Shown piece by piece: positions 21,573 through 47,561 of a DNA stretch of 64,000 nucleotides. The notes beneath the pieces are model-generated. The model ran no database searches, was not told the origin of the DNA, and saw only the letters and a list, made by a program, of their open reading frames with translations. The stretch's first letter is position 1. Each line of letters starts with the position of its first letter. Position numbers and translations under genes: made by a program. Source of the stretch: Candidatus Terasakiella magnetica (GTDB lineage Bacteria; Pseudomonadota; Alphaproteobacteria; Rhodospirillales; Terasakiellaceae); the NCBI RefSeq assembly GCF_900093605.1, contig NZ_FLYE01000002.1, forward strand, positions 62,001 to 126,000. Direction: 5' to 3'.

Positions 21573-22292
21573 ATGTTGAAAAAACTATTTTTTATATGCC
21601 TGATATTTATAGGAAGCTTGCCTGCACAGGCCGGAGTCTTTGAATTAAGCGCGCGACAAAATTCTTTAATCGATTTAATGGGTGCTGAGATTCTTAAAGA
21701 GGCTTATGGCCGTTTGGGTCATACAATTATGGTGAAACAACGTCCCGGATCGCGTGCTATTAAAGAAAGTAATTCAGGCTTAAATGACGGTGTGGTCATG
21801 CGCCTTGAAAAGGTCATGATAAAAAATGAAAACCTCTTGAAGGTTGATGTGCCGCTGTGGAAGTTTCAGGTCGCCGTTTTTTCCCCATCACCTGTATTGA
21901 GTGTGAAAAACTGGGATGATATTAACAAGAAACGTGCTGCAACCTATCTTGGTTATAAATATATCGAGAGCAAGCTTGTGGGTAAGAAGCATGATTTGGT
22001 GCCCTCCTTTGAAATCGGCATGCGTATGCTCAGCAAGAAGCGTTTTGATTATCTTATTTATGGCAAGCTTGATGGTTTGGAAGCTGCCAGTAAGGTAAAG
22101 CCCCGTAATATTTACTGCACGAGCCCCATTGAAGAATATGATGAATTTCATATGGTTCATAAAAGCCATGCCGCGTTAGTGCCAAAATTGAATGAAGTGT
22201 TGCGCAAAATGGAAAAGAGCAAAGAGATTGAGAAAATCCAGATGCGTGTTCTTGAAGAACATATCGGTGAATATTCAAAACTCTGTGATTAA
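21573..22292 (+). CDS. Solitary periplasmic solute-binding-like protein
   Basis: A 239-residue secreted protein: signal peptide MLKKLFFICLIFIGSLPAQAG, then a family-3-like solute-binding fold (LIDLMGAEILKEAYGRLGHTIMVKQRPGSRAIKESNSGLNDGVVMRLE). Similar to the other four in the window in size and layout, with no permease or ATPase nearby. It ends 4 bases before an inverted-repeat element. The upstream 240 bases are AT-rich. The ligand is unknown. Confidence 0.72.
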   Translation: MLKKLFFICLIFIGSLPAQAGVFELSARQNSLIDLMGAEILKEAYGRLGHTIMVKQRPGSRAIKESNSGLNDGVVMRLEKVMIKNENLLKVDVPLWKFQVAVFSPSPVLSVKNWDDINKKRAATYLGYKYIESKLVGKKHDLVPSFEIGMRMLSKKRFDYLIYGKLDGLEAASKVKPRNIYCTSPIEEYDEFHMVHKSHAALVPKLNEVLRKMEKSKEIEKIQMRVLEEHIGEYSKLCD

Positions 22293-22296
22293 GACC

Positions 22297-22563
22297 TAGG
22301 GTCAGGACCTATTAATTTATTGAGTTTGGCAGAGATGAATTTGAAGAAGGATTAGGTATAGTCCCCGCAGAAGTATTTGTACTTTAAGGGGGGTATAACG
22401 ACAGCTTTCTTCAAATTCATCCTGTCCCTTCGGGATTTATTAAAAATGCCACAAATGCAGCGTCAAAGACTTTTGAAAGTACAAGTACTTCCTGCAAGCC
22501 ATTTCCTTGCCTTGTGGTATTTTTAATAAACCAAACACATTAAATTAATAGGTCCTGACCCTA
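22297..22563. repeat. 267-bp inverted-repeat element (MITE- or REP-like)
   Basis: Perfect 23-bp terminal inverted repeats lie at 22297-22319 and 22541-22563 (left end begins TAGGGTCAGGACC). Inside are three further inverted pairs: 22334-22348 with 22407-22421 (15 bp, perfect), about 22367-22386 with 22454-22474 (imperfect), and about 22435-22454 with 22513-22530 (near perfect). No reading frame fits. The last 18 bases at the right end (22549-22566) recur exactly at 47544-47561. It fills the gap between the binding-protein gene and polA. Confidence 0.85.
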
Positions 22564-22580
22564 AAATATAATCTTCCTTC

Positions 22581-22608
22581 TTGAACGTTGGTTCGGCTTC
22601 GCTATAGT
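22581..22608 (+). promoter_or_regulatory. Sigma-70-like promoter of polA, probably leaderless
   Basis: TTGAAC (22581-22586), 16 bases, TATAGT (22603-22608). A start point seven bases after the -10 box would be the A of the polA ATG at 22615. No Shine-Dalgarno sequence is visible before that ATG, so a leaderless message is inferred. Confidence 0.6.
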
Positions 22609-22614
22609 CTCTTT

Positions 22615-25452
22615 ATGACTGATACAACGACACAAACAGCCAAGCCCGAACATGTTTATTTGATTGACGGTTCCAGCTTCATCTTCCGTGCATATTTCGC
22701 CAATATGCGCAACCCTATGACCCGATCTGATGGCACGCCCGTTGGGGCTGTTTATGGTTTTTGCTCCATGCTGATGAAGCTGTTGAGCGATACGGATGCA
22801 GATCATGTGGCTGTTGTGTTTGATACCGCGCGCAAGACCTTTCGAAATGATGTCTATCCTGAATATAAGGCGCACCGCCCGCCGCCGCCTGATGATTTGA
22901 TCCCCCAGTTTGACCTTGTGCGTGAAGCGGTTGAAGCGTTTAATGTGGCACGCGTTGAAATGGCAGGCTATGAGGCCGATGACCTGATTGCAACCTATGC
23001 CAAGCAGGCTTCAAAAATGGGCTCAGATGTCACCATCGTGTCCATTGATAAAGATTTGATGCAGCTGGTGGATGACCATATCTGCATGTATGACACCATG
23101 AAAAACCGCATTATCAAACATGATGAAGTGGTTGAAAAATTCGGTGTTGGCCCAGAACGTGTCATTGATGTGCAGGCTTTGGCAGGTGATAGCTCAGATA
23201 ATGTGCCCGGTGTTGAAGGTATTGGCCCCAAAACAGCGGCATTGTTGATCAATGAGTATGGCGATCTGGAAACTTTGCTGGAGCGCGCTTCTGAAATTAA
23301 ACAGAATAAACGCCGGGAGCGTTTAATCGAACAGGCCGAAATGGCACGTGTTTCAAAAGAATTGGTGACGCTGTGTCAGGATGTGCCAATTGATGTACCG
23401 CTTTCTGATTTTGCCAATCAGCAGTTTGATGCTGAAAAGCTGATCAATTTCTTTGAAGAGCAGGGCTTTAAATCTCTGATCACGCGGGTTGCTTCAAAAT
23501 TTGGTGTCGATGTCGCCCAAGATGAGGGGGGGGCGACTGAGCGCAAAGATGGTGAGGTCGCACTACCTTCTATGGCAGAGCTTTGCCCAAAAGAAACAAA
23601 ATATGAGCTTGTTCAAGATGAAGCCACATTGGCACGCTGGATTGAAGCCGCACGTCTCAAAGGCACTGTTGCGGTTGATACGGAAACCGATAGTCTTGAT
23701 GCGTTAAGTGCCACATTGGTTGGGGTGTCTTTATCTTATGAAGTGGGCAAGGCTTGTTATATTCCCTTGCGCCATAAATCAGCCCAAGCGGCGCAAACTT
23801 CTCTTTTTGGTGATGATGAGGGGCCAAGTGATGCGCCAGTGCAGGTCAGCTTTGATAAAGCAACCAGCTTGATTAAAAGCCTGCTTGAAGATGAAACCGT
23901 CTTAAAAGTCGGACAGAATATTAAATACGATATGCTCGTGCTGGCAAATCCTGAGAATGGGGGCATGAAGGTTACGCCCATTGATGACACCATGGTACTT
24001 TCATACATCAATGAAGGTTCCCAACATGGTCATGGTATGGATGAACTTTCCGAGCTTCATTTCGGTCATAAACCCATCCCGTTTAAAGAAGTCTGTGGTA
24101 CGGGTAAAAAACAGATTACCTTTGATTTGGTGGAACTGGAAAAAGCGCGCGATTATGCCGCAGAAGATGCTGATATCACCTTGCGCCTGCATCAATTGTT
24201 AAAGCCTCAGTTGGTTGGCAATAAAAACACCACCCTTTATGAAACTATGGAACGCCCGTTGATTTCAGTACTGGCTTTGATTGAAGGCAATGGCATTAAG
24301 GTGGACGTGCAGGAATTGCGCGCCATTAGTGATGAATTTGCCTTGCGTTTGGCTGAACTTGAAAAAGAAATTCATGCCCTGGCAGGGAAAGAATTTAACA
24401 TCGGCTCGCCCAAGCAGTTGGGTGAAGTGATGTTTGATGACCTTGAACTTCCCGGTGGGAAAAAAGGTAAAACAGGGGCTTATCAAACAGGTGTCGGCGT
24501 TCTAGAAAAGCTCGTTGATGCGGGGCATGAACTGCCCGTAAAGGTTATGGAATGGCGCCAGCTTTCCAAGCTGAAAAGCACATATGCCGATGCGTTGATC
24601 TCACAAGTAAATGCCAAGACAGGGCGTGTTCATACCTCTTTCCAGCAAGCTGTGACCTCAACAGGGCGTTTAAGCTCATCTGATCCAAACTTGCAAAATA
24701 TTCCCATCCGCACACAAGAGGGCCGTCGTATCCGCCGGGCTTTTGTGGCTGATGAGGGTAAAGTGTTGATGGCGGCGGATTATTCACAGATCGAGTTGCG
24801 CCTGCTTGCCCATGTGGCAGAAATTGACTCCTTAAAAGAGGCTTTCCTCAAAGGCATTGATATTCACGCCTTAACCGCATCTCAAGTCTTTGGTGTGCCT
24901 GTTGAAGGCATGGACCCCATGGTTCGGCGCAATGCCAAGGCGATTAACTTCGGGATCATTTATGGGCAATCCCAATATGGCTTGGCAAAACAGCTGGGCA
25001 TTTCCAATGGGGAAGCCAAGGACTATATCGAAGCCTATTTTGAACAATATCCGGGCATTCGCACCTTTATGGAAGAGGCTAAGGATGAAGCCCGCGATAA
25101 GGGCTATGTCACCACGTTTATGGGGCGCAAATGTTTCATCCCCGGCATTAATGACAAAAATGGCGCGCGCCGTGCTTATGGGGAGCGTGCTGCTATTAAC
25201 GCACCGATCCAAGGCGGGGCGGCTGATATCATTAAACGCGCCATGGTTGGCTTGCCTGAGGCTTTAAATAAGGCGGGGCTATCCTCACTGGTTTTATTAC
25301 AGGTTCATGATGAACTTGTTTTAGAGGTGCTTCCTGATGAAGTTGAAAAAACAAAGGAAGTCCTTAAAGAAGTGATGGAGGGCGCAGCCCAATTGAGCGT
25401 ACCACTAGTCGTGGATATTGGGGTCGGTAATAATTGGGAAGAAGCGCATTAA
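22615..25452 (+). CDS. polA: DNA polymerase I
   Basis: A 945-residue replicative repair polymerase with all three domains: 5' nuclease (about 10-290; LIDGSSFIFRAYFA, EADDLIATYA, GDSSDNVPGVEGIGPKTA), 3'-5' exonuclease with intact Asp-Thr-Glu (VAVDTETDSLDALSATLVG) and DAEDADITLRL, and family A polymerase (RLSSSDPNLQNIPIRT, AADYSQIELRLLAH, NFGIIYGQSQYGL, VHDELVLEV). The ATG at 22615 is chosen; an upstream in-frame TTG would fall inside the promoter. It removes Okazaki primers and fills repair gaps. Confidence 0.97.
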   Translation: MTDTTTQTAKPEHVYLIDGSSFIFRAYFANMRNPMTRSDGTPVGAVYGFCSMLMKLLSDTDADHVAVVFDTARKTFRNDVYPEYKAHRPPPPDDLIPQFDLVREAVEAFNVARVEMAGYEADDLIATYAKQASKMGSDVTIVSIDKDLMQLVDDHICMYDTMKNRIIKHDEVVEKFGVGPERVIDVQALAGDSSDNVPGVEGIGPKTAALLINEYGDLETLLERASEIKQNKRRERLIEQAEMARVSKELVTLCQDVPIDVPLSDFANQQFDAEKLINFFEEQGFKSLITRVASKFGVDVAQDEGGATERKDGEVALPSMAELCPKETKYELVQDEATLARWIEAARLKGTVAVDTETDSLDALSATLVGVSLSYEVGKACYIPLRHKSAQAAQTSLFGDDEGPSDAPVQVSFDKATSLIKSLLEDETVLKVGQNIKYDMLVLANPENGGMKVTPIDDTMVLSYINEGSQHGHGMDELSELHFGHKPIPFKEVCGTGKKQITFDLVELEKARDYAAEDADITLRLHQLLKPQLVGNKNTTLYETMERPLISVLALIEGNGIKVDVQELRAISDEFALRLAELEKEIHALAGKEFNIGSPKQLGEVMFDDLELPGGKKGKTGAYQTGVGVLEKLVDAGHELPVKVMEWRQLSKLKSTYADALISQVNAKTGRVHTSFQQAVTSTGRLSSSDPNLQNIPIRTQEGRRIRRAFVADEGKVLMAADYSQIELRLLAHVAEIDSLKEAFLKGIDIHALTASQVFGVPVEGMDPMVRRNAKAINFGIIYGQSQYGLAKQLGISNGEAKDYIEAYFEQYPGIRTFMEEAKDEARDKGYVTTFMGRKCFIPGINDKNGARRAYGERAAINAPIQGGAADIIKRAMVGLPEALNKAGLSSLVLLQVHDELVLEVLPDEVEKTKEVLKEVMEGAAQLSVPLVVDIGVGNNWEEAH

Positions 25453-47543: not shown

Positions 47544-47561
47544 TAGGTCCTGACCCTAAAA
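47544..47561. repeat. Solo 18-bp copy of the inverted-repeat end
   Basis: Identical to 22549-22566, the right end of the 267-bp element. It begins 5 bases after the PaaA-like stop and lies just before the ribosome-binding site of the next gene. Only this end is seen; no second repeat follows. Confidence 0.7.

Follow-up and report, generated by a model that had tools for sequence, protein, structure and literature searches.

What is the short, repeat-bounded unit in front of polA in Candidatus Terasakiella magnetica, and what is carried between its ends? The question arises in a window of 64,000 nucleotides, by which we mean the whole stretch of DNA that was analysed, where an initial annotation had described a 267-bp unit with 23-bp perfect terminal repeats and taken it for a non-autonomous mobile element. 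The unit is present as described, and its terminal repeat is the sole perfect inverted repeat of at least 23 bp within 2 kb in the 64-kb window. It is intergenic, lying between a 239-aa ORF (21573-22292), whose stop codon is five bases 5' of the element, and the polA reading frame (22588-25452) downstream, and no listed ORF of at least 80 aa is found inside the 267 bp. The PolA proteins closest to this one among plasmid records come from Azospirillum, at 56-57% identity, which points to a probable alphaproteobacterial host. Its parts, together with a separate end elsewhere in the window, are as follows.

22297..22563, no strand: whole element (family A), 267 bp, from genome copies and terminal-repeat analysis
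22297..22319, + strand: left terminal inverted repeat, 23 bp, perfect, matching IS5-family ends
22297-22329: left terminal repeat extended, 33 bp with two mismatches
22330..22424, + strand: arm 1, from DNA fold and arm alignment
22345..22409, + strand: hairpin motif copy 1, model R2, 58.5 bits
22425..22435, no strand: central small hairpin TCCCTTCGGGA, from sequence and DNA fold
22436..22530, - strand: arm 2, from DNA fold and arm alignment
22452..22516, - strand: hairpin motif copy 2, model R2, 62.5 bits
22541..22563, - strand: right terminal inverted repeat, 23 bp, perfect
47544..47558, - strand: lone 15-bp element end without the remainder of the element

Copies, lone ends and partner transposons

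According to the initial annotation, a lack of further copies in the genome would speak against a mobile unit. Instead, a search of the organism's own genome (G000) returned four more full copies at 96-99% identity, giving five that are 96-100% identical when the copy at 22297-22563 is included, together with one one-armed copy and six lone ends; a single-copy element is thereby ruled out. The 15-mer element end has 18 exact occurrences in the 3.68-Mb genome and its reversed control pattern none, even with one mismatch allowed, so that the repeat is far above chance. Of ten copies with two ends, nine have TA on both sides and differing bases outside it, as a TA target-site duplication would leave them. 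In front of polA, the element is absent in all five congeners (G001-G005). The upstream neighbour gene is the same only in G005, where the spacer between its stop and polA is short and free of the element; this empty site is too diverged for base-level alignment. Since copies are dispersed and the polA site lacks the element in the congeners, we regard the element as mobile.

The lone end in the window bears on a further claim, that the terminal 18 bases recur at 47544: fifteen of these are indeed an element end, TAGGTCCTGACCCTA, and the other three matching bases belong to the flank. Besides 47544-47558, lone ends occur in G000 at C4:52614, C12:18700, C12:305473, C33:81406 and C44:158338. They measure from 15 to about 34 bp and make up 6 of the 18 exact end sites in G000 and 14 of 28 in G005; their left boundary is sharp and their right boundary variable, and one idea is that they formed by deletion over the hairpin. 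One-armed copies of 167-184 bp, with either arm gone and both ends kept, were seen in G000 (L006, C33:87503-87669) and in G005 (L105, L111, L118, L120). At one and the same spot between convergent genes, G000 has an element of a sister family, B (L010, C33:181145), and G005 a lone A end (L119). GC-rich palindromic repeats of another kind (CCGCCTTCGCGAGGACGAC-like) lie near G005 elements, in the downstream flank of L134 and at L107.

IS5-family transposase genes, candidates for the enzyme that the initial annotation had placed outside the window, lie behind a near-identical end in G001 and G002, and a Hyphomonadaceae MAG has such genes with the exact end. G001 and G002 harbour IS5-family elements with one end, TAGGCTCAGGACCTATTAAT, that is one mismatch in 18 from the MITE end, and another that has 3-4 mismatches in 20. 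They encode two-frame transposases (PF13340; DDE_Tnp_1; NCBIfam IS5 family, with P0001 alone scoring below the cut-off for the last assignment). The exact 23-mer end was found in 19 stretches of GTDB contigs, 15 of them from the Hyphomonadaceae MAG SP12AHP1, two from Rhizobium sp. L1K21 and one each from Henriciella and Robiginitomaculum, and the Hyphomonadaceae genome has four PF13340 loci near the exact 20-base end (L244, L254, L256, L260). A search of the window's own genome with OrfA gave no match. From the matching ends, the copies and the empty site we infer that the transposase of an IS5-type transposon would move the unit in trans to TA sites, much as the initial annotation had supposed for a transposase of unspecified type.

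By its size, ends, copies and the transposons with like ends in relatives, the element is thus a MITE, and it further resembles IS5-family MITEs in its TA flanks and in having no gene. It differs from them in its interior, where one hairpin with conserved loops is present twice, in inverted orientation, and in that this core is common to elements with unrelated ends. Two side observations concern the transposons of the genus. Their ends have TAGGC (L123, L145, L199, L163) at the place where those of both MITE families have TAGGG. The two ends of contig C36 of G002 (L123/L124) have in common an outer stretch of 46 bp and some 70 bp of transposon end, beyond which they diverge, as if they were part of a larger repeat.

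The hairpin pair and its conservation

Folded alone, the element is far more stable than expected both as DNA (z = -14.0) and as RNA (z = -12.9), and in neither case did any of 200 shuffles fold equally well. The DNA fold has a terminal stem and two long arms, at 22330-22424 and 22436-22530, which stand side by side with the small CCCTTCGGG hairpin at the centre between them. Each arm bears one copy of a single hairpin motif of about 66 nt; the copies are inverted and 107 bp apart, and arm 1, read on the + strand, aligns to arm 2, read on the - strand. Interleaved internal repeats had been noted before, and they are there, yet the interior is made of two side-by-side arms round a small hairpin. 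Since the motif of one arm returns inverted in the other, arm can also pair with arm, and this gives rise to the interleaving. In order, each arm comprises an outer stem, nAGGM, a first stem P1 of 8 bp, a GCAG-like bulge, a second stem P2 of 7 bp, a loop, a CAA-like bulge, P1', RACGMM and the outer stem again. Promoter and terminator prediction yielded 2 and 1 sites in the element against 1.3 and 0.5 expected, and a reading of it as a promoter or terminator was set aside. A promoter-like TTAATA-16-TATAAT, of a kind that occurs in chance number, spans the right end and flank 5' of polA (22545-22572).

Conservation of the motif was assessed in arms from many elements. With the first arms of L195, L184 and L191 and both arms of L002 left out, 62 reference arms remained, of which 43 were aligned; L211 has no two-arm fold. 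In these 43 arms, 85.1% of cells pair, a share that shuffling lowers to 60.2% and sliding to 36.5-49.4%, and 243 cells show a double change, compared to 88.4 in shuffles, while coarser measures are barely above the shuffled level (pairs with a double change, 18 versus 16.2; pair types, 54 versus 50.3). An alignment of 25 elements has changes on both sides in 63 of 100 predicted pairs. Unpaired bases are conserved too: in 97 arms found by the model, and therefore with a conservation that is partly circular, the AGG is kept at 97/100/93% and the ACG (CGT on the other strand) at 97/98/85%, the base that follows being variable. Correction of imperfect palindromes by template switching is a known process, and it could maintain the pairing in place of selection on function. 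It is compatible with long Watson-Crick stems in which both sides change, but it would not conserve the unpaired AGG and ACG in elements with differing stems, and we consider it very improbable as the source of the pattern.

The mismatches in the stems, whose counts come from related copies and are not independent events, carry a further signal. Read on the motif strand, P1 has 26 G-T against 3 A-C mismatches in the 43 arms, and 16 against 2 in those picked up by DNA similarity alone. With its basal pair excluded, P2 is unbiased (4 versus 3), as is, nearly, the terminal stem (7 versus 6); on the + strand, the outer stems have 7 versus 2 and 11 versus 8. As the G-T bias of P1 holds with the motifs on opposite strands, and as unpaired bases are conserved, the data suggest that each motif is read as a folded single strand.

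Such a strand could be RNA, with either direction of transcription giving one motif in the right sense, which would bind a protein or set mRNA stability. This would account for the tolerance of G-T in P1, and it suits the strong RNA fold and the intergenic place 3' of a stop codon. However, the outer and terminal stems show little of the bias, the whole-element RNA fold prefers one strand only weakly (-132.7 versus -124.8 kcal/mol), and a G-T mismatch is milder than an A-C mismatch in DNA too. Neither does Rfam 15 hold a matching family, with no match at E<=1 for the element and none at gathering score for 20 distant loci, so that a known RNA family was discarded. An RNA role appears to us doubtful, though by no means far-fetched. 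The P1 bias is compatible alike with RNA and with single-stranded DNA and does not separate them. We find DNA slightly more likely: exposed as a single strand at replication, the hairpin might have a conserved binding factor through which transposition is enhanced or timed.

Recurrence across Pseudomonadota

How far the hairpin pair extends beyond the genus depends on the tool with which it is sought. DNA similarity gave matches in 5 of 60 relatives, own genome included, and a model of the whole core, R1, in 7 of 385 genomes of the class at E<=1e-5. With a model of the hairpin, R2, and a cut-off of E<=0.001, matches came from 47 of the 385 genomes of the class and from 55 of 398 genomes across the phylum (14 of the 55 in the class, 41 outside); both counts include the own genome, at most 13 candidates were scored per genome, and the E-values are rough. 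Near members read on the opposite strand still reach 41-94 bits with R1, whose matches are therefore no proof by themselves. This range overlaps that of the distant hits (43-93 bits), and the effective sequence number of R1 is 1.14, as would be the case if the element belonged to an ordinary MITE family and the wide matches were unrelated two-armed palindromes picked by a model that rewards pairing.

Several results argue against such an accident. R2, which includes the conserved loops, finds nothing in 343 of the 398 genomes. Among 56 loci, the best one per genome, 30 have a second R2 hit at E<=0.01, and all 30 pairs are convergent on opposite strands; in 28 of them the starts are 103-118 bp apart, the other two being partial or with an insert, and 26 of the 56 have no second hit. 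A model-free check with two short words and their distance agrees with this geometry, finding a partner in 30 of 52 loci, whereas control places gave one 2 and 3 times and random places in 83 of 1601 cases (left out were L309, which nearly duplicates L308, and three loci close to the end of a contig). Moreover, 28 of 29 pairs lie between distinct terminal repeats, which are part of none of the models; L286 was left out of this search, and L272 has none. With their repeats, 23 of these 28 are 260-279 bp long; for the remaining five, the alignment appears to continue beyond the repeat. Against these observations, chance palindromes are an improbable explanation, and a cassette that recurs across Pseudomonadota between many different terminal repeats is what the data show. 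A few members appear one-armed (L271, L292 and the C33 copy of G000), and ten transposon or end loci searched with R2 contain no hairpin motif.

The cassette also occurs on plasmids. For families A and B, 72,556 records held none at blastn sensitivity. Queries from other subfamilies matched records of Halomonas and Variovorax over 31-33% and of Nitratireductor over 27% of the query, and another matched two Azotobacter, one Halomonas and one Pseudomonas aeruginosa record over 62-71%. The hairpin model was applied to the P. aeruginosa and to one Azotobacter record: the P. aeruginosa PA83 plasmid and Azotobacter chroococcum pAcX50f, both gammaproteobacterial, have the two arms, 107-108 bp apart, with a weak second arm in pAcX50f (E 0.0014) and no annotated feature underneath in either. 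The phage records searched with an other-subfamily query gave none.

Ends and cores do not appear to have descended together, because families A and B share a core with differing ends and Rhizobium shares ends with a differing core. Family B, with four copies in G000 and ends like TAGGGCGTAAACTCATAAAATA, has a core 76-79% identical to the family A element; between the families, cores are 77.2% and ends 57.7% identical. In Rhizobium sp. L1K21, by contrast, the first 24 nt are 100% identical to family A and the core 59.3%, which is near background, so that the kinship of this core rests on the motif; core identities between genera are 55-60%, near the level of unrelated sequence. Compared in register at a threshold of 4 of 16, 34 ends (for G422, the right one) form 25 groups; with offsets allowed, the number of groups falls from 23 at 3 of 14 to 18 at 4 of 14, and it is 3 at the threshold of 5 of 14, which we took as too loose.

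Partner transposons are known for the A and B ends only, among the end groups compared. For B, the partner is a second IS5-family element in G001, which has one end at one mismatch in 20 from the B ends and its other end at four; its OrfA shares 41% identity with that of the first. With PF13340 used in 11 and 22 genomes, followed by end comparison, the listed PF13340 loci gave no own-end transposon in nine further genomes with a typed element end, nor in G362, G241 and G422. One B-type end was found in G025, where A-like ends are four mismatches off, and in G406 both ends of a transposon differ at three of 18 positions from the element end of G553; other partner-end matches, at four mismatches, look like noise. 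The simplest reading of one cassette behind many ends would be that the ends are exchanged for those of whichever transposon is at hand.

The description of the core, including six end or core strings, was not found in the open-access literature, and the core is likely, though not certainly, new to it. REPINs and REP elements are moved by RAYTs. Like them, our element has a pair of inverted hairpins and would be moved in trans (PMC3733652), whereas no GTAG tag is seen here and the ends are those of DDE-type transposons. It could further be proposed that the arms are CGTC-type REP dimers that were captured between transposon ends and are handled by a tyrosine transposase. In arm 2, CGT(C) does stand at the foot of an 8-bp first stem with A-T first pairs, and the inverted pairs, the mainly alphaproteobacterial occurrence and the lack of a dedicated transposase recall these repeats as PMC3733652 describes them. 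Yet there they have a single stem of 8-9 bp with a 4-5 base loop, whereas the hairpin here, with a second stem after an internal loop, is flanked by outer stems, repeated at a fixed 107-bp spacing and bounded by transposon-type terminal repeats, and arm 1 has CGTT. For lack of the single-stem feature we rejected membership among the CGTC REPs, and descent from captured dimers seems to us highly improbable. QMITE1 and QMITE2 of Coxiella burnetii are likewise long palindromic MITEs with strong folds, and are partly transcribed; the accessible part of PMC5896051 describes no core common to elements with other ends, and its authors report QMITE1 to lack orthologues elsewhere. Pae-1, a family of double hairpins in P. 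aeruginosa, seems too short at 84 bp and was set apart by this length, as tabulated in PMC2267715.

Taken together, we consider it likely that the unit is a MITE with IS5-family ends, moved in trans, whose interior is a structured hairpin-pair cassette that recurs behind many ends and is read as a folded single strand. Rather than decayed transposase DNA, this interior would be two inverted copies of the motif about 107 bp apart round a CCC..GGG centre. Such conservation beyond the ends was not foreseen in the initial annotation, and it suggests that the folded centre, found in widely separated bacteria, does something not yet described. More tentatively, the hairpin pair may be older than its present ends and have been a passenger of many IS lineages across Pseudomonadota, with the hairpin as a single-strand signal, DNA or RNA, for a conserved cellular factor; we hold this to be a serious possibility, short of a probable one.

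MITEs are usually filed under the transposon that supplies their ends and regarded as relics, whereas here the inside appears to outlast the ends. One can ask whether a sequence-specific hairpin helps a non-autonomous element to use any transposase, or whether it serves the host, and the conserved loops name the bases to change in such a test. If the inside does outlast the ends, many unannotated intergenic repeats would be one family that can be found with a 66-position model. If the hairpin pair is indeed the older part, the core rather than the terminal repeat would be the unit of descent, and elements such as this one a kind of mobile element for which there is at present no category.
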